Shown here in pieces: positions 1,992 to 46,934 of a stretch of DNA of 64,000 bases. The position numbers and the translations under genes were made by a program. The stretch's first letter is position 1. Each line of letters opens with the position of its first letter. The notes beneath the pieces were generated by a model that was not told the origin of the DNA, did no database searches, and worked only from the letters and a program-made list of their open reading frames with translations. Source of the stretch: Zingiber officinale (lineage: Eukaryota; Streptophyta; Magnoliopsida; Zingiberales; Zingiberaceae); the NCBI RefSeq assembly GCF_018446385.1, contig NC_056000.1, forward strand, positions 47,772,722-47,836,721, written 5' to 3'.

Positions 1992-3269
1992 TGTTGGACC
2001 GATACGCACGTGAAGGGAGGGGGGGGGATGAATCACGTGGTTTTCAGAAGCTCTTCTTATCTTTTTAAAATTTAAAGTATATGAACACAGCGAAAAAGAA
2101 AAAATAGCACAAAAAAAAACACGAACAGTTTACTTGGTTCAGAGCCTTCGGCGACTCCAACTCTAAGACCCAGGTCCGCAGACCTATCAATGGGTAATTC
2201 ACTATAAGCCTCTTCCAGTACCTCTGGAAGAGAGAATCAAGTACAAGAATTAAAGCAGTAGAATTAAAAAAATGCAACATTAATAACAGGTTACCAACAA
2301 GTTGGAGAGTTTGGTATGTTGCTGTTGGTCTGCCGGAGATGATCAGACGTCCCGGAAGCATAGCTCGAAGGCAAACAGACTTTCTAGAGTAGCAGTAGAA
2401 AGCATAAACAATCGAAAGCCCAATCGAATGCGTAGTAGTTCATATATCTATTCTATTTTGAAGCCTTCTCAAGACCCACTTATATAAGGCATGGAAGGCG
2501 CCTTCCATAGGCTTGGAAGGCACCTCCAACCTGTGAAACTTGATCCCAAATAGCTGAAACACTCATCCGCGGCGAAGTCAAAAATTTATCGTGCGGAAGG
2601 CACCTTATATAGCCATGGAAAGCGCCTTCTATAGCCATGGAAGACGCTTTCTATGAATAGTACGAAGGCGCCTTCATTGCTTGAAGGCGCCTTCAGACAC
2701 TGTTCATCCGAAGGCAATTTTGCACTTTTTCTGTAAAACAACGTTAATCCAAATAACCTGCAACACAAGTATTAGAACAATAATAATTAATAATAAAGAG
2801 TAGTAATTAGTTCATGTCCTCTCGGGACCATAAACTAGTCAAGGTCTCAGTTTAGGGATTCTAAATGGACCTAAACTAGACCGACGCCTAATGCCCCCTC
2901 AACCGGGATCTGTCCTCACTTAGTCACTCTTCTCCAGTGACTTACCTTAACTTACCAATTTGTCAGACATCCAGTCAGCCCGTCGACTTGTCTGGACTTC
3001 ATGACAGCTATTCGGTCGGCCCGTTGACCTAGATGGACTTCTCGCCAGATATCCAATCAGCCTATCGACCTATCTGGACTTCATACCAGCTATCCGATCG
3101 GCCCGTTGACCTAGCTAGATTTTCTGCTAGATATCCGGTCAGCCCATCGACTTATCTGAACTTCATACTGCACACTTAATCAAGTGGTTAGATCACAACA
3201 GAACCTAATTTAACTTACTTGTCATTAATCAAAATCTGAGTTAGACCTTTAGTGCAAATTACACCAATA
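1992..3269 (-). repeat. 5' LTR of the left Copia-like element
   Basis: It begins on the plus strand with TGTTGGACC directly after the PBS complement and ends at CCAATA, aligned against the better preserved LTR ends near 24281 and 33101. A TATA-like motif (TTATATAAG on the minus strand, about 2480-2490) separates U3 from R/U5. U3 carries five tandem hairpin units at about 2963-3166. Length 1278 bp. Confidence 0.7.
2963..3166 (-). repeat. Five tandem hairpin units in U3 of the left LTR
   Basis: Units of about 41 bp each contain a 6-base arm, a loop of about 19-20 bases with a conserved core, and a complementary arm. Arms read CAGACA/TGTCTG, CAGCTA/TAGATG, CAGATA/TATCTG, CAGCTA/TAGCTA and TAGATA/TATCTG. 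Most pair fully, the others with one mismatch. The same design occurs in the LTRs at 23163-24281 and 29558-33101. Confidence 0.75.
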
Positions 3270-14989: not shown

Positions 14990-15302
14990 GATGATGTCCT
15001 CTCTTATGATTTTTTTAGTCATCGTTCGACTGATGATGGCGAAGACAATCAGTTTTAAAGCCGTCGTTCGACTATTGATGGCGAAGACTTTTAGTTTTAT
15101 AGCTACCATTCAGCTGCTGAGGGCAAAGACTTTCGGTTTTATAGGCGTCGTTCGACTGCTGAAGGCGGAGACTTTCGATTTTATAGTTGTCGTTTGGCTG
15201 CTGAAGGCGAAGACTTTCGATGTTATAGCCATCATTCATCTACTGAGGGCTAAGACTTTCGGTTTTATAGTCGTCGTTCGACGGCTGAGAATGAACACTT
15301 TC
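14990..15302. repeat. 42 bp minisatellite (about 7 copies)
   Basis: The unit contains GTCGTTCGGCTGCTGA and GGCGAAGACTTTCGGTTT. Forty-two bases is 14 codons, so one frame looks like a 14-residue repeat protein, but this is a by-product of periodicity in a retroelement 3' region. Confidence 0.8.
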
Positions 15303-15368
15303 GGTGAGTCTGTAGAATCTTATCCATATCCGATCTGAATGTACGATTAAATTATAACACATATATAG

Positions 15369-16361: not shown

Positions 16362-16704
16362 CCTCCCATAGTTTTTTAGCTGTCGTTCGGCTGATGATGG
16401 CGAAGATAGTCGGTTTTAAAGTCGTCGTTCGACCATTGATGGAGAAGACTTTCAGTTTTATAGCCACCGTTCGGTTGTTAAGGGCGAAGACTTTCAATTT
16501 TATAGATGTCGTTCGGCTGCTGAAGGCGAAGACTTTCGGTTTTATAGCCATCATTCGGCTGCTGAGGGCAAAGACTTTCACTTTTATAGTCGTCATTTGA
16601 CTGCTGAGGGCTAAGACTTTTGGTTTTATAGCCGTCGTTCGGCTGCTAAGGGTGAAGACTTTTGGTATTATAGTCGTCGTTCAGCTGCTGAGGGCGAAAA
16701 CTTT
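16362..16704. repeat. 42 bp minisatellite, second array (about 8 copies)
   Basis: Same unit as 14990-15302, in the second duplicated segment, with about one more copy. Confidence 0.8.
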
Positions 16705-17149
16705 CATGAACAATTAGATTGGAAGATGAAAGGATAAACCCCTTTGGTATTCATGAGATGGATATATATATCATTTGGATGATATTTTCATGATGTGAAA
16801 AACCTTTAGTATTCTTCTTCTTCCTCCTTCCTTCTCTTGGCCGAAAACCCTCTTGTGGTTGCTAGCACAACCTTAGGTGATTTCCATCTCTTTCTTGTGA
16901 GTTTGTGAGATAAACAAATGCAAGGCTTGTTCGTGTGGATACCGTAGAGGCGTGAACGTGTGATCGTGCGGAGATCCAAGCTATCTGGAGTTCGTGAGCA
17001 CGTATCAAAGGTATAACCCTATCATGAAACTTAGTATAGATTGTTTTAAGCAATGTTTCTTCCCTTCGCATGGATCTGCTGGATAAAGGAACTAGAAGTT
17101 TTCCGCTGTGCTTTCGCGTATTTAGCGCCCTAGTTCTTTACAAGGTTTA
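16705..17149. mobile_element. LTR-retrotransposon debris
   Basis: The stretch resembles the R/U5 half of plant Copia LTRs (CTTGGCCGAAAACC near 16840, a TTTTCCGCTGTGC motif near 17100). No intact ends are visible. Assignment is by resemblance only. Confidence 0.35.
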
Positions 17150-18813: not shown

Positions 18814-21242
18814 TGTTAGAGTGTATACTAAAAACCTAGCTTTTTGTAAACATTTATTTTATGAAATAAGAATCACATTGATCAAGTCTTTGCATTTATG
18901 TTAAATGTAGTTGTCCATTTAATTTATATTGTAGATAACATGGTGTTTGGTGTGACACAGAAGATTATGTTATCAGTTCCTTATAAATTATAAATAGTAG
19001 CTCACGACCAAAAAGGAAATGGGCAAACCATTGGAATGGTCGTAGTGTAATTTGATATTAGTTTATCTTGACTATAAAATTACACTAGTACACTTAAAGT
19101 GTATTAAGTAGGACCATTTGAGGTGTTTTTTTATACTGACTACATAAAAGAACAAAACCTCTGTTATTATGGAAGTGTGTACTCTTAATCATGATATAAT
19201 AACAAACACGTATACTTAATATTTATTTCTTTAATTTATCAAAGGGTGTGATTTAGTTCGTTAAATCAATAGGCCCAATAAGTTGGGAAATGATATTATT
19301 TATATGGTGTGTTGTTGATTATAGAATGAAAATGTGTCCTAGTAATCTAGGTTGATGATATCCCCTTGAGGAGCTCATAAGAATTGTCATGTAAACTCTG
19401 CAGGTGGACTTAGTCCGACATGACAATAAGGATGAGTAGTACTACTCTTGGAGCTAGATATTAATTGAGTGAGTGTCAGTAACTCATTTAATTAATGGAT
19501 ATTCGATATCTTAAACACAGGGAGATTAACACACTCATAATAAGAAGAACCCATAATGTAATTTGGGATTGGTGCGATAGTTCAATAATAGCTCTTTAGT
19601 GGTATGAGTTATTATTGATGAACTTGAGTTGGGTGTTCGGGGCAAACATAGAAATTCAAGATCATTGGGAGACCAAAACCAATTGCTCCTCTCGATCCCT
19701 ATTGTAGCCTCTTATATAAAGCTTTATATCCAACCAAAGTCTAGCCTCTTAGCCCATGCTAGGGGTCGACCCCTATCCTTGCTTGGAGCCCAAGCAAGGG
19801 GTCGGCCAAGCCAAGCTTGGAGCTCAAGCTAGGGCCGACCAAGCCTTGCTTAGTGCCCAAGCAAGTGGTCGGCCAAGTAAGGAAAGGAAAGAGAATTTTA
19901 TTAAAAATAAAATTTTGATAAAATCTTTCCTTTTATGTTTCTATCCACATGGTTTTAAATGAGAGTTTTAAATTTTAAATCTTTCCTTTTATAGATTTTT
20001 TACAAAGGATTAAAAGAGAGATTAGATATCTTTCCTTATTTGTAGATATCTATAATGTTAAAAGAAAGATTTTAATTTTTAAGAAAACTTTCCTTTTATT
20101 GTAACCATGATATAAAAGGAGTTTTATTTTAAAAATCTTATCTTTTATAAATATCCATAAAAGGATTTAAAAGAGAGAGATTTTAATTTATAAAGCATTC
20201 CTTTTATAGCTAACCACATAAGGGATGTTTTAAAATAGAGATTTTAATTTTTGTTTAAAATCTTTCCTTATTTGTTTGATAAGAGGTGGTCGGCCATGTC
20301 ATGAATAGAAAATAAAGTTTTATTTTTTGTTATAAAACTTTCCTTTTTTGGATTCTCCAAGGATTATAAAAAAGAGGTAAAGGGTGCATTTATGGAACAC
20401 AACTTCTATTCTATTGTTCCTCTCTCTTTTCCTTTGGTGGTCGACCCTCTTCCTTTCTCTCTTCTCCTTTTGTTTTCCACATTGTGGTCGGCGGCATCAA
20501 TTCTTTTAGGTGTCTTGGTGGCCGGTTACTAGGAGGAGAAGAAGAAGAGAAATGAGCCCCTCTTGTCTAGATCCCTTTAGTGGCCGGAGGTTGGAGTAAG
20601 AGAAGAAGGCTTTGGTGGATTTCTTCTTGGTAGATCGTCGCCCACACGACGTCTAAGAGAATGAGAGGAATACAATAGAAGATCAAGAAGTTTTTTTTAA
20701 CAAAGAAATGTATAACTAGTTGTCATATTCCGCATCATACTAGTTTTCTTTGTACGGATTTTTGAAATACCAAATACAAGAGGCTAATGATTCTAGGCAA
20801 TCAATTTTATGTTTTGATTTTGTGTTTGTTTTGTTTTCGATCTTGTGATTCGATTGTTCTTAGTGACTAAACCTAGGATTACTATAGGGATATTAAATAT
20901 TGAATTTCGTTGAAAGACTTTGTTTAGGAAGTGGTGGATGATCTCATACCCAAGAAGGTCAGTGTCTCACCATGTTTAACCTGGAAGTCGATCTTTGAAA
21001 TAAATATTTAATCAACTTTGTAACATGGGTGAATTTAGATTAATAATATTAAGCATCGTTTGCGATCCAAGTCTAAACCTCTAAGAACAGATAAGTTGAA
21101 CTTAGAATCAATAATATTAAATTCTGTTTGCGATTCCAAGTTTAATTTCTAAAGAACACAATAGATTGTTAAAAAAGGTTCGGGACTTGTATAAAATTTT
21201 TGTATAGGGGGACCAGTACGATATTCCGAATAACAACCAACA
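18814..21242 (+). mobile_element. Solo LTR, 2.43 kb, plus strand
   Basis: It starts TGTTAGAGTGTATAC and ends AACCAACA, flanked by a perfect 5 bp target duplication GGTAA (18809-18813 and 21243-21247). No internal retroelement sequence is attached. The insertion splits the old gypsy reverse-transcriptase region. A TATA box (TATATAAAG, about 19713-19721) gives the orientation. A second, inverted, diverged copy lies at 30622-33022. Solo LTRs arise by recombination between the two LTRs of a full element. Confidence 0.85.
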
Positions 21243-23157: not shown

Positions 23158-23162
23158 CTTAG

Positions 23163-24281
23163 TGTTGGACCGTGAGATTCGATAGAGGGGGGGTGAATAT
23201 CGATAAACAAAATCGTTCGAAAAGAGTTACGCGCAGCGGAAATAAAAGGACAATGCTAACACAAGCTGGTTTTACTTGGTTAGAGCCTGTGTCGACTCCT
23301 ACTCCAAGGCCCGCACACAAGGGTGCTTTCGGTGGGCAATCACTAGCAGTTCAAAAATTGTTACAAATTAAAGTACAGGAATGCTAATGGAAATAAAGCA
23401 AATACCGACAAGAATTTAACCAAACAGGGAAGGAGCTTGTTGTCGGAGCTTTGTTAGCGTCGCAGGAGCGCAGATCAGCAGAGCAAGCAGTAGAAGACTT
23501 TCTTTCAGTTGTTGTGTTGAAGCTCCCCTCTGACCCTCCTTTTATATGAGGCTCGGGGTGCCCCGGATCCCTTCCGGGCATCCTGGTGAGACGTGGCAGG
23601 TCCAACCAACGAGCTCCACGTGGCGACGCGCAATCTGGATAAAATTCACCTCCCGGGCGCCCGGACCACTTTCTCCAGAAGACAGCTTTCCTGCAAGACA
23701 AGGTTAGTCCGAGGCAAATAGATAAGATATATCATGCAAAACAAAGTGTTAGCATAGTTTATAGGTTTAATATAAAAAGTATGACTTAGATTCCGTCTTT
23801 CCGAGACCGGAATCTAGTCACGATCTCGACTTAGATATCCGAAATGGATCTAAGCCGGATCGACGCTAATGTTCCCTTCCCGGGAACGCGTCCTCACAGT
23901 CACTCCCCTCCAATGACTTACCTTACTTACCTGCCAGACGTCCGGTCAGCCCTTCGACCCGTCTGAACTTCTCGCCAAGCGTCCAGTCCGCCCGTCGACC
24001 CGCTTGGACTTCTCGCCAAGCGTCCAGTCAGCCCGTCGACCCGCTTGGACTTCTCGCTAGCTATCCAGTCAGCTCGTCGACCTAGCTGGACTTCTCGCCA
24101 AGCGTCCGGTCAGCCCGTCGACCCGCTTGGACTTCGTGTCAGACATCCGGTCAGTCTGTCGACCTGTCTGGACTTCGTCTGCACACTCGGTCAGAGTGTT
24201 AAATCACAACAAACCTAACTTAACCCGATTTGTGATTCATCAAAAACCTGAGTTAGACCATTAGTGCTAACCGCACCAACA
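23163..24281 (-). repeat. 3' LTR of the non-autonomous Copia-like element
   Basis: 1119 bp, TGTTGGACC to CACCAACA on the plus strand. A TATA-like CATATAAAAGG (minus strand, about 23538-23548) marks the U3/R boundary; U3 holds six hairpin units at 23935-24185. Confidence 0.85.
23935..24185 (-). repeat. Six tandem hairpin units in U3 (3' LTR)
   Basis: Arms in order on the plus strand: CAGACG/CGTCTG, CAAGCG/CGCTTG twice, TAGCTA/TAGCTG, CAAGCG/CGCTTG, CAGACA/TGTCTG. The loop core GTCAGCCCGTCGAC is largely constant while the arms change together. Confidence 0.85.
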
Positions 24282-24296
24282 ATCTCCCCCTTTTTG
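24282..24296 (-). other. Polypurine tract
   Basis: The minus strand reads AAAAAGGGGGAGAT directly against the start of the 3' LTR, as expected for plus-strand DNA priming. Confidence 0.8.
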
Positions 24297-24439
24297 ATGG
24301 AATGACAACCTGGTTAAGTTAGTGAAAATATATGCAAAAACCAAGCATGATTTTTGAGGTTTTTAAGGTTTTGCATTTAGTTGCTCTAACTTAACCTAAC
24401 TTAACCACCTACCCCTCCCCCTTTGACATTCATCAAATA

Positions 24440-25824
24440 GGGACATAAGTACGTGACCAATACAGGATTCAAGCAAAATGAAGGTTGTAGAAAATGTCAA
24501 GCTAACTTGGGGGAGTTTTTAAATTTCACTATATAGTAACTGAACTTTTGTAATATAACTAAGTTTTGAAAAATAATTAATTTAGCAACATAACTTAGTA
24601 TATTTTGAGTAATTTTTTAAAGATAATTTTGGCAAAATTAAGTTCCAAATTTCAAGAGATTAAATTTTCAAAATAAGTTTTAACTTGGAACGCTTTACAA
24701 ACATGAGTTTTCAAAATCAAAGTTTTAGGATCAAGGTGTAGATTTTTCAAAATAAGTGTCAACTTTGAAACATTTTTCAAACCTGAGTTTTCAAAACCAA
24801 AATTTCGAAATCAAGGTTTAAATTTTCAAAATAAGTTTCAACTTTGAAACAATGAGTTTTCAAAATCAGAATTTCAAAATTAATTAAGACTAAGTTTGCA
24901 AATGATTCAATTTTTAAAAACTTAGTTTATAAAATCCAATTTAAAAGCTTAGTTTTATAAAAACTAGTTTTCAAAAATATATATATCAAATTGGATTTCC
25001 AAACAACAGATTTTTAAAAAGAAATTTTAAGAGGAGATATTATTTTTAAAGCCGAGGAAATAATTTCGGTGTTAAGTGTTGATTTAATTCTCCCCCTAAA
25101 CCTGACATTATTAAAATTTTTGCTAAGAATATTTAATATAAGATTTTCAAAGTAATTTTTTTTTAATAGATTGAGGTAGAATTTTCTAAAGAGATTTTTT
25201 TTAAAAAAAAAACAACATTTAAGGAGATAATTAAAAAAATAAACCTCCCCTGAATTTGATACTCCTTTAATTTATTAATCCTCCTTATTTTATTACTCCC
25301 CCTTAATATAATGCTAAGATTTGGGTTTGTTAAATTTCAAAACCTTAACACATTTTTCTACCTGAGTGTTCTAGGGGATATAGTAACACTTATATTATTT
25401 ACATAATTAATTGTTTATTTGAGTTTGATTAATCAATAATTAAATTCAGATGCTTAAGCTTCAGTTTAAGGTTAAATAGGATTAACTTTTATTAATTCAG
25501 TAGCAGTTAACCATTATCAATTATTTATTGATTAATTTTACTTGATTTAATACTTAGTAAATTTCGTATTAATTGATTGAGCTGGTGAAAATGTTAGTTA
25601 ATAATTATTTTTTTTATTAACTTCCTTTTAAGTAGGACTAATTTAGTTTGAAGTTAGCATGAAGTTGAAATTATTAAACACAGTTAAATAAGGTTCAAGT
25701 TAATTTTAGTTCTCAAATAAAGTTAGACTTAAACAATTAAGTTCTACTTACTAAGTTTAAAGTTTAAGTTAATGAAATTTAAGTTTTTAAGATAGGTGTC
25801 TAAGTTTTAAATGAATTTAAAAGA

Positions 25825-25873
<49 letters not shown>

Positions 25874-28500
25874 ATTATTATTTATTTTATAAAGGGATTT
25901 CTAACGGGATTTTTTAAAACAGTGTTTAAAAGAAAAATGATTTTTTATAATATGTTTCATGGCAATTAACATACATTTCATTTAGTTTTGATTTTAGATT
26001 TAAGTTTAAGTTTAATTTTAAGTTTAAGTTAAAATTTTTAATTTTAAATGTAATTTCAATATTAAGTTTAAATTTAAGTTTTAATTTTCAGTTAAGCTAA
26101 ATTAAGATTAAAGATAATTTTAAGGTTAGAATAATATTTAAGATTAAAAATAAGTTTAAAGTCTGAATAATAATTATTATTTTTTTGGTAAAAAGGATTT
26201 TTAATATAATTTTTTTTAAATGATTTAAGTTTAATTTTATGTTTTAAATTTAAATTAAGTTTAACATCAATGTTAAGTTTTAATTTAATTTAAAATTAAG
26301 TTTTAACTTTAATTTTAAAGTTTTTAGTTTAAGTTTTAAAGTTTTAATTAGCATAAGTGTCTTAATATTAAAATGACTTTAAAATGACTTTAAAATTATT
26401 TTTAATTATTAAAATGAATTTTTTTTTTGAAAGGATTTTTTTTAAAGAATTTTTTAAAATAATTTTTTAAATAATTTTTAAAGGATTTTTAAAGTAATTA
26501 TTAAAGAATTTTTAAAATGATTTTTAAGGATTTTTTTTTAAAGGAATTTTAAAAATAATTTTGAAAATATTTTTAAAATAGTTTTAAAAGAATATTTAAA
26601 ATGGTTTTTAAAAGTTTTTAAGATAGTTTTTAAAAGAAGTTTTTAAAAGAATTTTTATAATAATTTTTAAAAGAGTTTTTAAAATAAGTTTTAAAAGATT
26701 TTTTTTAATGATTTTTGAAAGACTTTTTAAATGATTTTTAAAACAATTTTTTTAAAAGAATTTTAAATAATTTTTAAAATAATTTTAAAAATGAGTTTTA
26801 AAAGTTTTTAAAATAATTTAAAAGAATTTTTAAAATGATCTTTAAATGAGTTTTGAAATCATTTTTAAAAGAATTTTTAAATGATTTTTAAAAGAATTTT
26901 TAAAAGAGTTTTAAAAATGATTTTTAACATAATTTTTTTTAAAAGAATTTCTAAAAGAATTTTTAAAATAATTTTAAAATGTTTTTTTTAAAGAATTTTT
27001 AAAATAATTTTCAAAATAGTTTTTAAAAAGATTTTTAAAATAGTTTTTAAAATAATTTTTTTAAAAAAAAAATTAAAATTGTTTTTTAAAAGAAATTTTA
27101 AAATAGTTAAAAAAGATTTTAAAAATAATTTTTAAAATGTTTTTTTTCACAAATTTTTAAAATAGTTTTTAAAGAATTTTTAAAAGAATTTTTGAGTTAA
27201 AATAATTTATTAAGTTAAAATAATTTAAAAAAGAATTTTTAGATAAATAATTTATTAAATTAAAATGATTTTAAAAAAAAATTTGGTTAAAATAATTTTT
27301 AAATTAATTTTTAAGTTAAAATAATTTAAGTTTAATTTTTAAAATAAATTTTTAAGTTAATAAAAATAAGTTTAATTTTTTTTTTAAAAATAAATTTTTA
27401 AGTTAAAAAAAAAAGTTTAATTTTTAAAATAAGTTTTTAGGTTAAAAGAAAATTAACATGTTAATTTAATTGATTTAATTTTAATTAATTTAATTTAATT
27501 TAATTTAATTTAATTTAATTTTAAGTAATTTCTTTTAGGTTCTTAGTCATCTCACCCAATCTATGTTTTCAATCAGGGAATCCTATAATTTTGTGAGATA
27601 AATTAGGTTCAATTTTAGGGTTTATTTTTAACTTGTGTTAGATTCAAGTTTAGCTTTGGGTTCAACAAATAGGCGTTCTCTAGATAAACTTCTGGGCTAT
27701 TGTTAGTCACCTGGACATCATTAGAGTAACCATGCCTTCGAGGTTTTCCAAATAGTCCTATCCACTGAACTTAATACAAAACATTGGTCTAACTGGATAG
27801 GATCCGTAAGGGGTAGCTTCGGCTAGTTCCACTTAGCCAAATGCACCAGGTCGAAGCTATATCTTCCTAGACATGCATAGACTAAGCTTCCCTAACGTAC
27901 TATCATCCAAAATTTCACCAGTACCATTTTTCAAATTAAACTTAAACCCTTTTCTAATTAATCCTAAGTACCCCGCCGGGTAGATTTGTTTGGGTTACCC
28001 TTTCAGGTAGGTTAGTTTCGGAGGTGTCAGCTATTCTGAAGCCTCCCCCTGACTTATTGACTTTCCTTTTAAAATTTTTGTATAATTAGAGTTGGTTTTA
28101 GTTAAGTTTTAATGTTTAATTTGTAATTTAAAATTTAAGTTTTTTATTTTGAATTAATTAAATTTGTCAAATTATCTTTCTTTAAAAGAGTGTATTTAAT
28201 ATTTAATTTTTCATTCAATTTCAATTTTATTAGGTTAATTGAATTATCTTTCTTTAATAGCTTATTTTTAAAGTTTAAATTTTTATTAATTTTTAAATTT
28301 GAATTAATTAAATTGTTTGAATTATATTTCTTTAAAGGTTTATCTTTTAGCTTGTTATTAATTGTTAATTTTGAATTTTTTAGATTATTTTTGTTTAATA
28401 TGTTATTTTTAACATTTAATTTTAAGTTTGTTAAGTTTATTTTTGATTTTATCAGAGTGTTTGGATTCCTTATATTTTCTTTATCTTTTAAGTTGATATA
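24440..28500 (-). repeat. Low-complexity AT-rich interior of the non-autonomous element
   Basis: About 4 kb is made of short motifs such as TTTTTAAAATAATTTTTAAAAG, degenerate and tandem-like, densest at 26380-27500. A pure (TTA)n run lies at about 25828-25870. A short better-mixed block at about 27540-28080 resembles ordinary retroelement sequence. No coding capacity is visible. Confidence 0.75.
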
Positions 28501-28819
28501 ATTAGTGGAATTTATTAGATAAGTTTTATCTTTAATATTTACTTTTTTTGTTAATCAGATTATCTCGAGTTTGGATAAGACTTTCTAGATTAATATTGTC
28601 TAGATTATCACTTAATTTTAAATTTTCTAATTGATTAAATTATTTGAATTGATTTGGTCATTGTTCTGTTTGACCAAGTCAAGGTTGATGCCAAATTGAT
28701 GAGTCTTGATTGACTTGATCAGTATCTAGATTATTTTGTGATTTTGAATTTAAATCTTTTAGATCTAGATTATCATGCACCATACTTGGAATAATTTCAT
28801 ACTTATCTGAATCATCATG

Positions 28820-29245
28820 CTAATTATTTAAACTACTATTAGTAGGGGCATTTTGGTAAACATTACTAACCTTGAGCGCATCCCCTAATTCAGTAGGCTT
28901 TTCGATTGGATCTAACCCGTGTTCGGATTCGATTTTTACTTGATCCTCGAGCTCCATCGGCTCCTCCTCGTGAAGTTTGATCAACTGGGTCCAAAGCTCA
29001 TGTGCATCTTTGTACTTTTCTAGTCTACATAAAACACTGTTAGGTAAAACATTACAAATAATTTTACTTACATTTGTGTTTAGTTCTGAGTTCTGAGAAG
29101 GTCTTCTCAATATCAGCCAATAATCAAAGTTTAAACTTCCTAAGAAACATTCCATTCTTCGCCTCCAGTAGTTGAAATCTTGATCGTACGGTGGTGGTTC
29201 GTTGGGGTTCCATCCTTCCTGAAGAGGCATTGATCTTACACACAT
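28820..29245 (-). mobile_element. Short gag remnant of the non-autonomous element
   Basis: An open stretch of about 140 residues near the 5' end of the element. It starts MCVRSMPLQEGWNPNEPPPY, followed by an FNYWRRRMECFL block, typical of the N-terminus of plant Copia Gag (DUF4219/UBN2 type). There is no zinc knuckle or pol after it. Broken fossil. Confidence 0.65.
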
Positions 29246-29543
29246 GGAAACAGAGAAAAAATTCCAAGACTTGGTCTTGGATTAGGAGTGTCGGAGAAAA
29301 ATAGTATTTTACTAATTTCAAAAAAAATATTAATAAAAAATGTTATTTCAAATTTTTGAAAATGTAATATTTTGTCAATACTAAGCACTGGTGAAAAGAT
29401 GACGATGTATTTTTCAAAACCAGTTTTGGAGGGAAAAAATGAAAGGCGTAAGGTTTTATTTTAAGAACGAACGATATCTAATTTTTCTTTAAAAAGACCC
29501 CCCTTTGTCTGATTGGTGGTTGCACCAAATCAGAGCGGTACCT

Positions 29544-29555
29544 GCTTTGATACCA
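29544..29555 (-). other. Primer-binding site (initiator Met tRNA)
   Basis: The minus strand reads TGGTATCAAAGC, one base off the usual Copia PBS, two bases inside the LTR. Confidence 0.8.
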
Positions 29556-30339
29556 CTTGTTGGACCGTGAGATTCGATAGAGGGGGGGTGAATATCGATA
29601 AACAAAATCATTCGAAAAGAGTTACGCGCAGCAGAAATAAAAGGACAATGCTAACACAAGCTGGTTTTACTTGGTTCGGAGCCTGTGTCGACTCCTACTC
29701 CAAGGCCCGCACATAAGGGTGCTTTCGGTGGGCAATCACTAGCAGTTCAAAAATTGTTACAAATTAAAGTACAGGAATGCTAATGGAAATAAAGCAAATA
29801 CCGACAAGAATTTAACCAAACAGGGAAGGAGCGTGTTGTCGGAGCTTTGTTAGCGTCGCAGGAGCGCAGAGCAGCAGAGCAAGCAGTAGAAGACTTTCTT
29901 TCAGTTGTTGTGTTGAAGCTCCCCTCTGACCCTCCTTTTATATGAGGCTCGGGGCGCCCCAGATCCCTTCCGGGCGCCCTGGTGAGACGTGGCAGGTCCA
30001 ACCAACGAGCTCCACGTGGCGACGCGCAATCTGGATAAAATTCACCTCCCGGGCGCCCGGACCTCCGGGCGCTCGGACCACCTTTCTCCAGAAGACAGCT
30101 TTCCTGCAAGACAAGGTTAGTTCGAGGCAAATAGATAAGGTATATCCTGCAAAACAAAGTGTTAGCACAGTTTATAGGTTTAATATAAAAAGTATGACAT
30201 AGATTCCGTCTTTCCGAGATCAGAATCTAGTCACGATCTCGACTTTGATATCCGAAATGGATCTAAGCCGGATTGACGCCTAATGTTCCCTTCCCGGGAA
30301 CGCGTCCTCACAGTCACTCCCCTCTAGTGACTTACCTTA

Positions 30340-30597
30340 CTTACCTGCCAGACGTCCGGTCAGCCCTTCGACCCGTCTGGACTTCTCGCCAAGCGTCCGG
30401 TCAGCTCGTCGACCCGCTTGGACTTCTCGCCAAGCGTCCGGTCAGCCCGTCGACCCGCTTGGACTTCTCGCCAGCTATCCGATCAGCCCGTTAACCTAGC
30501 TGGACTTCTCGCCAAGCGTCCGGTCAGCCCGTCGACCCGCTTGGACTTCGTGCCAGACATCCGGTCAGCCCGTCGACCTGTCTGGACTTCATCTGCA
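30340..30597 (-). repeat. Six tandem hairpin units in U3 (5' LTR)
   Basis: Arms in order: CAGACG/CGTCTG, CAAGCG/CGCTTG twice, CAGCTA/TAGCTG, CAAGCG/CGCTTG, CAGACA/TGTCTG, all fully complementary. Same order as in the 3' LTR. Confidence 0.85.
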
Positions 30598-30621
30598 CAC
30601 TCGGTCAGAGTGTTAGATCAC

Positions 30622-33022
30622 TGTTGGTTGCTACTCGGAAAACCTATAGGTTCCACTGTACAAAAATTTTGTACAAAGGTCTGAACCTTTTCCTAGCTAC
30701 CATGTGTTCTTTTAAATTAAATTTTGGATCGCCTGCGGAACTTAACACGTTTGATCCAAAACTTAATCTATTTGTTCTTTTAGGTTTTGACTTGGATCTC
30801 CTGCGGAACTTTACACGTTCGACCCAAGTCTCCTTAAGTTATTAATTCCATTAAATATTAATTTCCATAATTGGTTCCCAGTACTGACGTGGCAAGGCAC
30901 ATGGCCTTCTTGGATATGGGAGCAACCACCACCGACTAGACAAAACCTTTTATAGAAAGCTAATATTTAATTTCCTAAAATAACTTTAGGATAACCAAAG
31001 AGAACAATCAAATCACAAGGAAAAGAAAAAATAAAAGAACACAATATCGAAAAATATATTCGAAATTCTAGAACGTAAGCCTCTTGTATTTGGTATTATT
31101 TCCATAAATAACTAGCATGATGCGGAAATAAAAATTACTAGTCATACCTTGTAGAAAAACCTCTTGATCTTCTACCGTATTCCTCTTCTAACCTCGGACG
31201 TTGTGTGGGCAACGATCTACCGAGATGAGAAACCACCAACCACCTTCTTCTCCTCCAAGCAAGGTTCGGCCACAAAGGAAGAACTTCACCAAAGAAGAAA
31301 ACCAAAATACTAACCAAGCTCCAAGAGATGCTAGCTTCCTCTCCTTCTTCTTCTTCTTCTCCAAGTAGTATCCGGCCACCACAAGAGCTCCAAGGAAGGG
31401 AGAGAGGTTCGGCCACCACAAGAGGAAGAGAGGAAGAGGATGGCCGGCCACACCAAGAAACAAAAAGGGGAGAGAAAATAATAGAGGTTGTGTCTCATGA
31501 AGGCACCCTCACCCCTTCTTTTATATTCCTTGGCCTAGGCAAATTAGGAAATTTAATTACAATAAAATTTCCTTAATTTTCCTTGACATGAATTAATTGA
31601 AAAAAATAAAATAAAATTTCCCAATCAACTTGTGATGGCCGGCCACAATCAAAAGAGCAAATTAGGAGAGTTTCAATCAACAAATTAAAACTTCCTAATT
31701 TGTTTCCGGAAATTTTAAAAAATAAAATTTCTCTTTAAAAATCTCTTCATGGTTAATAAAAGGAAATTTCTATAATTTTAATTTTATCAACATGTGAATA
31801 ATTTTTAAAGAGAAAATAAAACATCTCTCCAATCTACAAATAAGGAAAGAGATCTAATCTCTTTCTTTAATCTTTTGTAGATCTTTTACAAGAGAGATAT
31901 TTTAATTTTAATTCTCTTTAAATTATATCTTCCACATAATAATAAAAATTAAAATTAAATTTCTTTTTTAATTTAATTTGGCCGGCCCCCACTAGCTTGG
32001 GTTCAAGCTAGGGCCGGCCACCCAAATTCATACCTAGGCCGGCCCTAGCTTGTTCCCAAGCTAGCTTGGCCGGCCCCAATTGGGTGGGAATAGAAGGTGG
32101 GTATAGAACTCTACAAATAAGAGGCTACGATAGGGACCGAGAGGAGGAATTGGTTTTGGTCTCCCGATAAAATTAAGCATCCCGTGTTCGCCCCGAACAT
32201 ACAACTTAATTTTATCAATGATAATTCATTCCACTAGAGAACTATCATTGAACTACCGCACCAATCCCAAATTACATTTTTGGGCTCCTTCTTATTATGA
32301 GTGTGTTAGTCTCCCTGTGTTTAAGATATCGAATGCCCACTAATTAAGTGAGTTACTGACAACTCATTTAATTAATATCTTAGTCCAAGAGTAGTACCAC
32401 TCAACCTTATCGTCATGTCGGACTAAGTCCACCTGCAGGGTTTAACATGACAATCCTTATGAGCTCCTCTTGGGGACATTCTCAACCTAGTATCTCTAGG
32501 ACACAGTTTCCTTCTATAATCAACAGCACACACTATAAGTGATATCATTTCCCAACTTATCGGGCTTATTGATTCATCGAACTAAATCTCACCCATTGAT
32601 AAATTAAAGAAATAAATATCAAATATATGTGCTTGTTATTATATTAGGATTAAGAGCACACACTTCCATAATAACCGAGGTCTTTGTTTCTTTATAAAAT
32701 CAGTATAAAAGAAACGACCTCAAATGGTCCTACTCAATACACTCTAAGTGTACTAGTGTAATTATACAGTCAAGATAAACTGATACCTAATTACATTATG
32801 ACCTTCTAATGGTTTGTTCCTTTCCATTTTGGTCGTGAGCTACTGTTTATAATTTATAAGGTACTGATAACATTATCTTCTGCATATGACACCACATGCT
32901 ATGTTATCTACAATATAAATTAATTGAACAACTACAAACAAATGTAGACAATTTGACCAAATGTGATTCTTTATTCATAATGAATGTTTACAAAGCTTAG
33001 GCTTTCAGTATACACTCCAACA
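30622..33022 (-). mobile_element. Solo LTR, 2.40 kb, minus strand, nested in another LTR
   Basis: It starts TGTTGGTTGCTAC and ends CACTCCAACA with a perfect target duplication ATCAC (30617-30621 and 33023-33027). It is the reverse-complement relative of 18814-21242, with conserved ends (AGTGTATAC) and clear divergence inside. It is younger than the LTR it splits. Confidence 0.85.
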
Positions 33023-33106
33023 ATCACAACAAACCTAACTTAACCCGATTTGTTATTCATCAAAAACCTGAGTTAGACCATTAGTGGTAACCGCACCAAC
33101 ACTTAG

Positions 33107-35777: not shown

Positions 35778-36443
35778 TAATCCGGCGGTAAGAATGGGGG
35801 GCCCACCCTCTGAAGGGTCCGAGCGGAGCTAGAGATAACCCATCCATGGGCTTGGGTTTCCGACGCTAAGGCAGGAGGATCGAAGGGCCGAGCGGGTTGC
35901 CCGATCGGCTAGGATCGAAGGGCCGAGCGGGTTGCCCGTTCGGCCAAGATAAGGGCGAGGGTACAAAGGTAGCCGAGCGGCCTATTCGCTTGTCTCGGGA
36001 TCTGGGATGTCAGAGAAGGCATGTCTGATGGTTGGGCCGTACACAAGATTGCACGATGGAAGATCTCGCCGTCACATCATGGAAAGGTTGATACAGTAGT
36101 AGTATGGCCTCATGGACGTCTTCCTGACAGATCCATGTCTGGGCATGGCCCTTCTGACAGACCCATACCTGGGCATGGTCAAAAGCAGGTGGTTACTTTG
36201 ATTGGCGCGCCCAGGCTTCTTTGAGAGGTCTATATAAGGTCTCCATTTCTTCACCGGAGGTACACGAGTCTTCTACTTAAAAGCCACTTCTTTGCTATTT
36301 CCTCGCCTGACTTGAGCGTCGGAGGGCCGTCGCCGGGACACCCCTCCCGGCTCGGTTTGTTGCAGGTTCGCCGGAGCACCTGAGGATCCAGTAGGGAGCG
36401 CCACGTCCCCAGCGTTCGTTGACCCTTGGTTCGGACAGGATCA
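35778..36443 (+). repeat. 5' LTR of the young gypsy element
   Basis: 666 bp ending GGACAGGATCA. A TATA box (TATATAAGG) at about 36231 separates U3 from R. U3 has two copies of a 35 bp unit containing GATCGAAGGGCCGAGCGGG. Confidence 0.9.
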
Positions 36444-41984: not shown

Positions 41985-43142
41985 GTAGAGCGGCGCCGAT
42001 CGGCTATAAACATCCGCGCCGACGAGCACCGTCGTTAAAGATCGAGAGCCGCGCCGATCGGCTATAAACATCCGCGCCGACGAGCACCGTCGTTAAAGAT
42101 CGAGAGCCGCGCCGATCGGCTATAAACATCCGCGCCGACGAGCACCGTCGTTAAAGATCGAGAGCCGCGCCGATCGGCTATAAACATCCGCGCCGACGAG
42201 CACCGTCGTTAAAAATCGAGAGCCGCGCCGATCGGCTATAAACATCCGCGCCGACGAGCACCGCCGTTAAAATCGAGAGCGACGCCGACCGGCTATAAAC
42301 ATCCGCGCCGACGAGCACCGTCGTTAAAGATCGAGAGCCGCGCCGACCGGCTATAAACATCCGTGCCGACGAGCCCCGTCGTTAAAGATCGAGAGCCGCG
42401 CCGACCGGCTATAAACATCCGCGCCGACGAGCACCTTCGTTAAAGATCGAGAGCCGCGCCGATCGGCTATAAACATCCGCGCCGACGAGCACCGTCGTTA
42501 AAGATCGAGAGCCGCGCCGACCGGCTATAAACATCCGCGCCGACGAGCACCGTCGTTAAAGATCGAGAGCCGCGCCGACCGGCTATAAACATCCGCGCCG
42601 ACGAGCACCGTCGTTAAAGATCGAGAGCCGCGCCGACCGGCTATAAACATCCGCGCCGACGAGCACCGTCGTTAAAGATCGAGAGCCGCGCCGATCGGCT
42701 ATAAACATCCGCGCCGACGAGCACCGTCGTTGAAGATCGAGAGCCGCGCCGATCGGCTATAATCATCCGCGCCGACGAGCACCGTCGTTAAGGCGCGAGA
42801 GCCGCGCCGACCGGCTATAAACATCCGCGCCGACGAGCCCCGTCGTTAAAGATCGAGAGCCGCGCCGATCGGCTATAAACATCCGCGCCGACGAGCCCCG
42901 TCGTTAAAGATCGAGAGCCGCGCCGACCGGCTATAAACATCCGCGCCGACGAGCCCCGTCGTTAAAGATCGAGAGCCGCGCCGATCGGCTATCGCGCCGA
43001 TCGGCTATAAACATCCGCGCCGACGAGCATCGTCGTTAAAGATCGAGAGCCGCGCCGATCGGCTATAAACATCCGCGCCGACGAGCCCCGTCGTTAAAGA
43101 TCGAGAGTCGCGCCGATCGGCTATAAACATCCGCGCCGACGA
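41985..43142 (+). repeat. 58 bp minisatellite, about 20 copies, inside the gypsy 3' region
   Basis: Each unit contains the palindrome GCCGATCGGC (GCCGACCGGC in some units), then CTATAAACATCC, then a small hairpin CGACG-AGCAC-CGTCG and TTAAAGATCGAGA. Units are nearly identical; one junction near 42985 is irregular. Fifty-eight is not a multiple of three, so it is not a coding repeat. Confidence 0.95.
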
Positions 43143-43492
43143 GCTCATGATCGTTCACAAGTACCAGATTGATTAATGTCGGTCGGCCGACGGTTTACCA
43201 ATACTTCGCGTGCACGGAATGCAAGCAGTATGGTTAAGCGCTAAGTGCAAACAATATGGTTAAGCGCTAAGTGATTTTGAGGAAGCGACTCAATTGATTA
43301 ACCCGATCGGTCGTTTAGTAGGAAACCCGGGGAGCCTGACAGATTATACGAATGAGCAGCAACGCATTAAAAAGGGGCAATGAAAGGCAAACAAAAAATA
43401 CAAGGCGCATAAGGGAGCCGAACGGCACGTACAATAAAGTTTTTGCATCCGCCGAGCGGATGAAATACAAAAAGCACTTGAAAGAACTCGCC

Positions 43493-46233: not shown

Positions 46234-46934
46234 TGATCCGGCGGTAAGAATGGGGGGGCCCACCCTCTGAAGGGTCCGAGCGGAGCTAGAGATAATCCAT
46301 CCATGGGCTTGGGTTTCCGACGCTAAGGCAGGAGGATCGAAGGGCCGAGCGGGTTGCCCGTTCGGCTAGGATCGAAGGGCCGAGCGGGATCCCGATCGGC
46401 TAGGATCGAAGGGCCGAGCGGGTTGCCCGTTCGGCCAAGATAAGGGCGAGGGTACAAAGGTAGCCGAGCGGCCTATTCGCTTGTCTCGGGATCTGGGATG
46501 TCAGAGAAGGCATGTCTGATGGTTGGGCCGTACACAAGATTGCACGATGGAAGATCTCGCCGTCACATCATGGAAAGGTTGATACAGTAGTAGTATGGCC
46601 TCATGGACGTCTTCCTGACAGATCCATGTCTGGGCATGGCCCTTTTGACAGACCCATACCTGGGCATGGTCAAAAGCAGGTGGTTGCTTTGATTGGCGCG
46701 CCCAGGCTTCTTTGAGAGGTCTATATAAGGTCTCCATTTCTTCACCGGAGGTACACGAGTCTTCTACTTAAAAGCCACTTCTTTGCTATTTCCTCGCCTG
46801 ACTTGAGCGTCGGAGGGCCGTCGCCGGGACACCCCTCCCGGCTCGGTTTGTTGCAGGTTCGCCGGAGCACCTGAGGATCCAGTAGGGAGCGCCACGTCCC
46901 CAGCGTTCGTTGACCCTTGGTTCGGACAGGATCA
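46234..46934 (+). repeat. 3' LTR of the young gypsy element
   Basis: 701 bp, TGATCCGGCGG to GGACAGGATCA. It has three copies of the 35 bp unit instead of two, which accounts for nearly all the length difference from the 5' LTR. Confidence 0.9.

Follow-up and report, generated by a model that had tools for sequence, protein, structure and literature searches.

In U3 of their long terminal repeats (LTRs), members of a ginger retroelement family carry tandem 41-bp units in which two short arms vary from unit to unit yet stay complementary. We interpret these units, with a probability of about 0.52, as a Sirevirus palindrome array whose units remained able to fold back within the transposing lineage, likely as a signal at the RNA level. 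In this ginger-type family the array would correspond to the clusters of repeated palindromic motifs known from Sirevirus LTRs, and each unit can fold back into a bulged hairpin made of a 7-bp arm, a 3-nt bulge, a GGTC/GACC stem and an apical loop. In the transposing lineage folding would have been kept and the arm letters changed, giving rise to a handful of paired unit types that then spread via whole units and whole LTRs; inserted copies decay without repair. The folded form would act where the nucleic acid is single-stranded, the best candidate being U3 at the 3' end of the genomic RNA. Its sense strand is the minus strand of the window (the whole stretch of 64,000 nucleotides that was analysed), and the hairpins could serve as a protein-binding or processing signal.

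The host element

Judged by its sequence hallmarks, the host of the array belongs to the Sirevirus type of Copia elements; it reads on the minus strand and is a member of a family that is very abundant in ginger. Its parts are as follows.

23163-33101, minus strand: whole host element, with an internal region that extends to about 29557
23163-24281, minus strand: 3' LTR of the host element, with U3 running leftwards from 24281
29558-30621, minus strand: main part of the 5' LTR; the remaining 80 bp of U3 lie at 33022-33101
30622-33021, no strand assigned: nested insertion within the 5' LTR, with ATCAC on either side
23541-23546, minus strand: TATA box TATAAA (sense start 23546), about 390 bp downstream of the array
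24284-24291, minus strand: terminal polypurine tract AGGGGGAG; after it come AT and the TG that opens the LTR
24422, 25097, 25303 and 28050 (sense starts), minus strand: further copies of AGGGGGAG, by sequence match
29544-29552, minus strand: primer binding site TATCAAAGC, preceded by AGTGG
29582-29588, minus strand: run of seven C near the LTR end, at the position of the Sirevirus integrase signal (available text of PMC2829016)
28820-29281, minus strand: candidate gag fragment of 153 aa

The LTRs end in TG...CA and the element is flanked on both sides by CTTAG (23158-23162 and 33102-33106). In alignments the 3' LTR is 94.7% identical to the main part of the 5' LTR (1,064 columns) and 97.5% identical to its split-off piece. 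The nested 2.4-kb insertion has the ends TGTTGG...CCAACA. Several Sirevirus hallmarks were found. The polypurine octamer lies 10 bp before the 3' LTR with an AT/TG junction (24291-24276 reads AGGGGGAG, AT, TGTTGG), and five identical copies occur on the sense strand of 24281-29560. According to the available text of PMC2829016, the 5' junction of Sireviruses is CA/ATTGG (or AGTGG) followed by the 9-bp primer binding site TATCAGAGC, and a poly-C integrase signal lies about 21 bp from the LTR end. In the ginger element the junction is CA/AGTGG, the primer binding site agrees with the published one in 8 of 9 positions, and the C7 run ends 24 nt from the LTR end. An inverted repeat around the terminal polypurine tract was recognized by eye (...CATTCCATCAAAA, mirrored by TTTTTGATGAATCAC inside the LTR). 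The TATA box is at sense offset 736 of the 1119 LTR positions, and another TATA-like string is at offset 519.

The candidate gag fragment, the only one of the six listed ORFs of at least 70 aa that was searched against profiles, gave a weak match to Retrotran_gag_2 (E 0.078, below the cut-off), and inspection by eye of 24282-29560 revealed no pol-like ORF. Since a single weak gag-like ORF lies inside the element, the host copy looks non-autonomous. ORFs beside the more diverged relative described below matched Retrotran_gag_2 (E 1.3e-4) and zf-CCHC (E 7.8e-4), both below the curated cut-offs. The internal region of the host also contains a long AT-rich low-complexity stretch (25993-27521).

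Other palindromes and tandem arrays occur in the window. A perfect 9-bp palindrome with a CGG-CCG type motif, GCGCCCGGA-cc-TCCGGGCGC, lies at 30053-30072, close to the TATA box in the 5' LTR. At 19777-19877 there is a tandem array of 33-bp units, the first of which is a perfect 10-bp palindrome, CCTTGCTTGG-agc-CCAAGCAAGG. Tandem units of 34-35 bp at 35876-35944 and 46333-46435 are imperfect palindromes whose outer letters vary by unit (CCCGATCGGC, CCCGTTCGGC), and no perfect arm of at least 7 bp was found in them. Two related 42-bp tandem arrays (15011-15305 and 16371-16705) are about 1.1 kb apart, and a long array at 41987-43144 repeats a 58-bp unit rich in CGCGCCGATCGGC about 17 times or more.

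Anatomy of the array

The window contains 17 units, with a period of 41 bp in all three arrays.

23934-24171, minus strand: array in the 3' LTR U3, with six bulged-hairpin units of 41 bp (starts 23934, 23975, 24016, 24057, 24098, 24139); arms paired 7/7 in three units and 6/7 in the other three
30348-30585, minus strand: second array of the host element, in the 5' LTR U3, also with six units (starts 30348 to 30553); 7/7 paired in all six
2963-3159, minus strand: five units belonging to lineage B, a more diverged relative (starts 2963 to 3127); 7/7 paired in one of the five

A unit consists of a 7-bp arm, a 3-nt bulge (TCC in 16 of the 17 units), GGTC or a near form, an 8-nt apical loop, GACC or a near form, the 7-bp partner arm and an 8-bp spacer. 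The original prediction had described hairpins of about 41 bp with 6-base arms around a loop of 19-20 bases. The unit length is right; the arms are 7 bp long, and GGTC/GACC lengthens the stem beyond the bulge, which leaves an apical loop of about 8 nt. All five arm forms that had been named (CAGACA, CAGACG, CAAGCG, CAGCTA, CAGATA) were found, with TAGATA and TAGCTA in their place in two units. The matching of the arms is real: 110 of 119 arm pairs are Watson-Crick pairs, compared with a mean of 76.0 and a maximum of 100 in shuffles, none of 20,000 of which reached the observed value. Ten of the 17 units are paired at all seven positions, and the inner six positions are all paired in 13. Of the three arrays compared earlier, the two large ones are not independent, as both sit in the LTRs of one element (23163-33101). 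The location in U3, upstream of the TATA box, was likewise borne out, on the minus strand: the array of the 3' LTR occupies LTR offsets of about 110-348, in the upper half.

Pairing across the family

The family was sampled with two exact flank patterns that are blind to the arms, all loci being on one contig (C1). From the first pattern, present 2,206 times genome-wide, 90 of 100 listed loci were taken, and from the second (1,316 genome-wide) 50 of 100. With the three window arrays the sample comprised 143 loci, of which 136 contained arrays and 7 did not, and 693 units; loci L001-L008 were left out. Sampling by exact flanks means that young copies are over-represented, and the parse fixed the bulge at 3 nt and missed units with indels in the core. 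Genome-wide (3.09 Gb, 211 contigs) there are 52,769 exact loop cores.

In the sample 0.895 of the arm positions were paired, versus 0.658 when partners were shuffled over all units (maximum 0.685) and 0.693 when they were shuffled within arrays (maximum 0.713); the pairing thus exceeds chance family-wide, and the first of the two outcomes that the original prediction had set against itself, pairing no better than chance, did not occur. With one LTR per element (586 units), pairing fell from 0.888 to 0.214 or less when the partner arm was slid by 1-3 bases (0.20-0.21 for one base). The paired-site mutual information proposed earlier as a check was, among the variable positions, highest with the true partner at p5, p6 and p7 (1.19, 0.54 and 0.65 bits), although the margin at p6 was minimal, since the partner of p5 gave 0.53 there, and p4 was the exception (0.29 with the true partner versus 0.38 elsewhere). 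The bulge began with T in at least 576 of the 586 units. Pairing between neighbouring units was considered as the true structure and rejected; over 523 neighbour pairs it amounted to 0.574, which is below the shuffled value.

Folding, the conserved core and the strand

Single window units folded as the sense strand formed the arm, bulge and inner stem in 14 of 17 cases (brackets judged by eye). The minimum RNA folds of whole arrays do not consist of six separate hairpins; local hairpins are mixed with longer-range pairs. The fold z-scores were modest throughout: -2.80 (sense) and -3.16 (antisense) for the 3' LTR array, -1.15 (sense) for the 5' LTR array and -1.87 (sense) and -1.73 (antisense) for the lineage B array. 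An Rfam scan of the window returned no family at the gathering score. Transcription places U3 at the 3' end of the genomic RNA, which makes RNA hairpins the favoured form, and cruciform extrusion of duplex DNA is unlikely where arms of only 7 bp enclose 19 bases. That the types remain paired although the letters of their outer arms vary points to folding and not to a protein that reads duplex DNA.

The class of wobble pairs gave no consistent strand direction across lineages A, B and C. The ratios of sense G.U to plus-strand G.T were 35:54, 108:95 and 35:27, respectively, and at the inner positions 28:37 in lineage A and 90:57 in lineage B, the latter leaning to sense G.U. A genome-wide contrast in matched local context (513 sense G.U versus 338 plus-strand G.T) was set aside as strand evidence because it counts copies, not events, and because the sample gives 24 versus 21.

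In lineage A 14 core columns are conserved at 0.96 or more, with one exception at 0.87. Core and bulge columns together range from 0.87 to 1.00 in lineage A and more loosely from 0.62 to 1.00 in lineage B. The near-fixed core and bulge of lineage A are as expected for a part that something recognises. It is tempting to extend the RNA reading accordingly, although the odds are against so specific a version: in an array of U3 RNA hairpins, the conserved bulge and inner stem might be read by a protein, and outer stems that differ and do not cross-pair might prevent misfolding between neighbours, so that a packaging, export or 3'-processing signal might lie within what has been supposed to be a promoter palindrome cluster. 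Adjacent units in lineage A are of the same type in 9 of 281 cases, versus 40.6 after shuffling (minimum 23), and in lineage B in 35 of 156, inside the shuffled range (mean 46.7, minimum 32). Differing neighbours would keep the hairpins from cross-pairing, but an inherited order could give the same pattern, and the alternation may indeed reflect one inherited order.

The conserved core also fits a DNA cis-regulatory array, in which transcription factors would read the GGTC/GACC dyad upstream of the TATA box and the outer arms would be the baggage of a few ancestral units. The array is CpG-rich (GC 0.63, CpG observed/expected 1.19), and the available text of PMC2829016 describes Sirevirus repeated motifs that have CGG-CCG dyads, mark out CpG islands upstream of the TATA box and mainly matched sites of stress-related factors. 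A factor that reads letters would fix the letters, however, and the several outer-arm letterings that stay complementary are left unexplained, which makes this alternative unlikely.

Decay after insertion

LTR mates were assigned from distance and strand. Of 22 pairs, 18 contained units (91 units), and two are doubtful: L107/L108, separated by 11 kb, and L109/L110, with an identity of 88%. Between mates 51 arm differences were one-sided and 2 were compensated, the latter both in L109/L110. In the 17 pairs with units and at least 94% identity, 46 differences were one-sided and none was two-sided. Differing positions amounted to 55 of 1274 in the arms and 61 of 1703 in the stretch between them. 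Inserted copies decay evenly and without repair, and since arms and intervening stretch decay alike, the pairing pattern arises before insertion. Variants common to both LTRs of an element were also mostly one-sided (17, versus 1 compensated; 7 of the 17 came from two swapped-arm units), which means that a single round does not strictly require pairing.

Changes within a unit type agree with decay. For one pair within one type, genome-wide single changes numbered 513 and 338 and compensated doubles 23, versus 13.8 expected by independence. Within types in the family sample, 329 changes were one-sided and 26 were double, 24 of them complementary, versus 16.3 doubles expected. As the doubles are near independence, young variation is mostly decay, and the small excess could come from age mixing alone.

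These counts bear on a non-selective route that the original prediction had also raised, the correction of one arm on the template of the other during reverse transcription or repair, which would produce matching arms without function. Such correction would change both arms at once and would yield several paired types, the two compensated differences in the doubtful mates L109/L110 are of the kind it predicts, and at the reverse-transcription step it keeps some weight because both LTRs would inherit its product. In inserted copies it was not seen, the closely related pairs lacking any two-sided difference. Moreover, the asymmetric bulge persists although correction tracts should have removed it as well, and neither the near-independence of genome-wide doubles nor the mostly one-sided variants common to both LTRs suits it. 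We therefore consider it decidedly unlikely.

Unit types and their origin

A few unit types, copied wholesale, account for most of the covariation. In the family sample five types hold most units, and the arrays follow recurrent orders. Genome-wide, exact-loop units of two types numbered 12,559 and 9,467 with matched arms and 154 and 123 with swapped arms, i.e. 22,026 versus 277 of 22,303. The second outcome that the original prediction had set against itself, a few ancestral units copied wholesale, was thus largely encountered in the young lineage. It is not a full account, in that the origin of the distinct types still needs paired changes.

Evidence for such changes came from more diverged copies. 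A pattern at the start of U3 added 20 loci, some of them diverged. An older lineage, marked by a flank of its own, has 149 sites genome-wide; 13 of the 15 that were read contained units. Its arms, by slot, include CCAGTTG/CAACTGG, CCAGATA/TATCTGG and CCAGCTA/TAGCTGG, and TCGGTTG/CAACCGA is perfectly paired in L164. Pairing in 51 units was 0.796, versus 0.637 after shuffling (maximum 0.700); the poorly paired fifth-slot units, save one in L173, were left out of the 51. The loop core, previously described as almost constant, is so in the young lineages, but in the older lineage the apical loops are mostly of 4, 5 or 8 nt, depending on the slot. One type of the older subfamily, CCAGACA/AGTCTGG, keeps an A/A mismatch next to the loop (6 exact units, 23 nearest units). 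L160 (positions 1-411) has a diverged U3 with GTCGGAC...GTCCGAC, near the Usier motif GTCGGACGTCCGAC published in the available text of PMC2829016.

Arm forms present at three or more loci were clustered blind to pairing (715 units; L157, L160 and the loci without units L170 and L175 were left out). Eight of the ten centres are perfectly paired, a result reached by 3 of 200,000 permutations, although this figure is not a true probability because the test ignores relatedness among types. The two unpaired centres are a swapped-arm form and a form decayed at two outer pairs. At position 5 all four Watson-Crick pairs are present among the centres. Two paired centres, CCAACTA/TAGTTGG and CTAGCTA/TAGCTAG, differ by one transition per side from the commonest type and could have arisen by joint decay. 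With a threshold of two loci there were 25 centres with 140 of 175 positions paired, and none of 200,000 permutations was as good.

Copying alone, in which a few ancestral units were palindromes by chance and wholesale amplification followed with no later selection on pairing, agrees with the few types that carry most units, the rarity of swapped-arm units and the near-independence of changes within types, but it is very unlikely, as at least six well separated, fully paired letterings (eight with the two possible decay forms) and the paired arms of the older lineage need several paired double changes before copying, and the permutation result, with its treatment of related types as independent, also speaks against it.

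Comparison with known systems

Sirevirus LTRs characteristically contain palindromic repeated motifs that lie upstream of the TATA box (Bousios et al. 2010, PMC2829016). In the available text of that study the motifs are short palindromes of one sequence per element, present in at least eight copies per element and starting 200-400 bp into the 3' LTR. Like them, the ginger array is CpG-rich, belongs to a Sirevirus-type element and consists of repeated palindromic boxes, which sit as a cluster upstream of the TATA box within the upper half of the LTR, and the published motifs CGGTCAGACCG and GTCGGACGTCCGAC resemble its GGTC/GACC core and the 7-bp palindrome of L160. The GGTC/GACC dyad is present, and flanking CGG and CCG occur together only in some of the window units. 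Unlike the published motifs, the ginger array starts about 110 bp into the LTR and has six 41-bp units per LTR, with outer arms that vary between units yet stay paired and with a 3-nt bulge. Six units were counted in the 3' LTR of the window element, and eight were found in 3 of the 143 sampled loci; because this count, which covers the LTR, falls short of the published minimum of eight per element, the array is not classed as a strict repeated motif. It works like the Sirevirus kind of palindrome and is best called a variant of it.

In maize, Sirevirus LTRs contain hairpin-forming palindrome regions with an excess of small RNAs (2016 Genome Research study, as summarized in the available text of PMC10760457). 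A palindrome cluster with predicted strong secondary structure in a Sirevirus LTR is the common feature, whereas the commonest Copia motif is given there as CACCGGACNNNGTCCGGTG. Unit-to-unit changes of the arms with pairing kept were not reported in the literature searched, which did not extend to the 2016 maize study itself.

Retroviruses possess constitutive transport elements and other RNA hairpins close to the 3' terminus of their genomic RNA. As a working analogy only, the ginger units may be likened to the constitutive transport elements in being repeated hairpins near that end.

Sirevirus palindrome clusters have so far been read as promoter boxes (PMC2829016) or as hairpin regions matched by small RNAs (PMC10760457), and the available texts of both leave undecided whether the letters or the folding is the trait that is kept. 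With its 52,769 loop cores and 277 natural swapped-arm units, the ginger family offers enough variation and ready-made controls to decide between the two.
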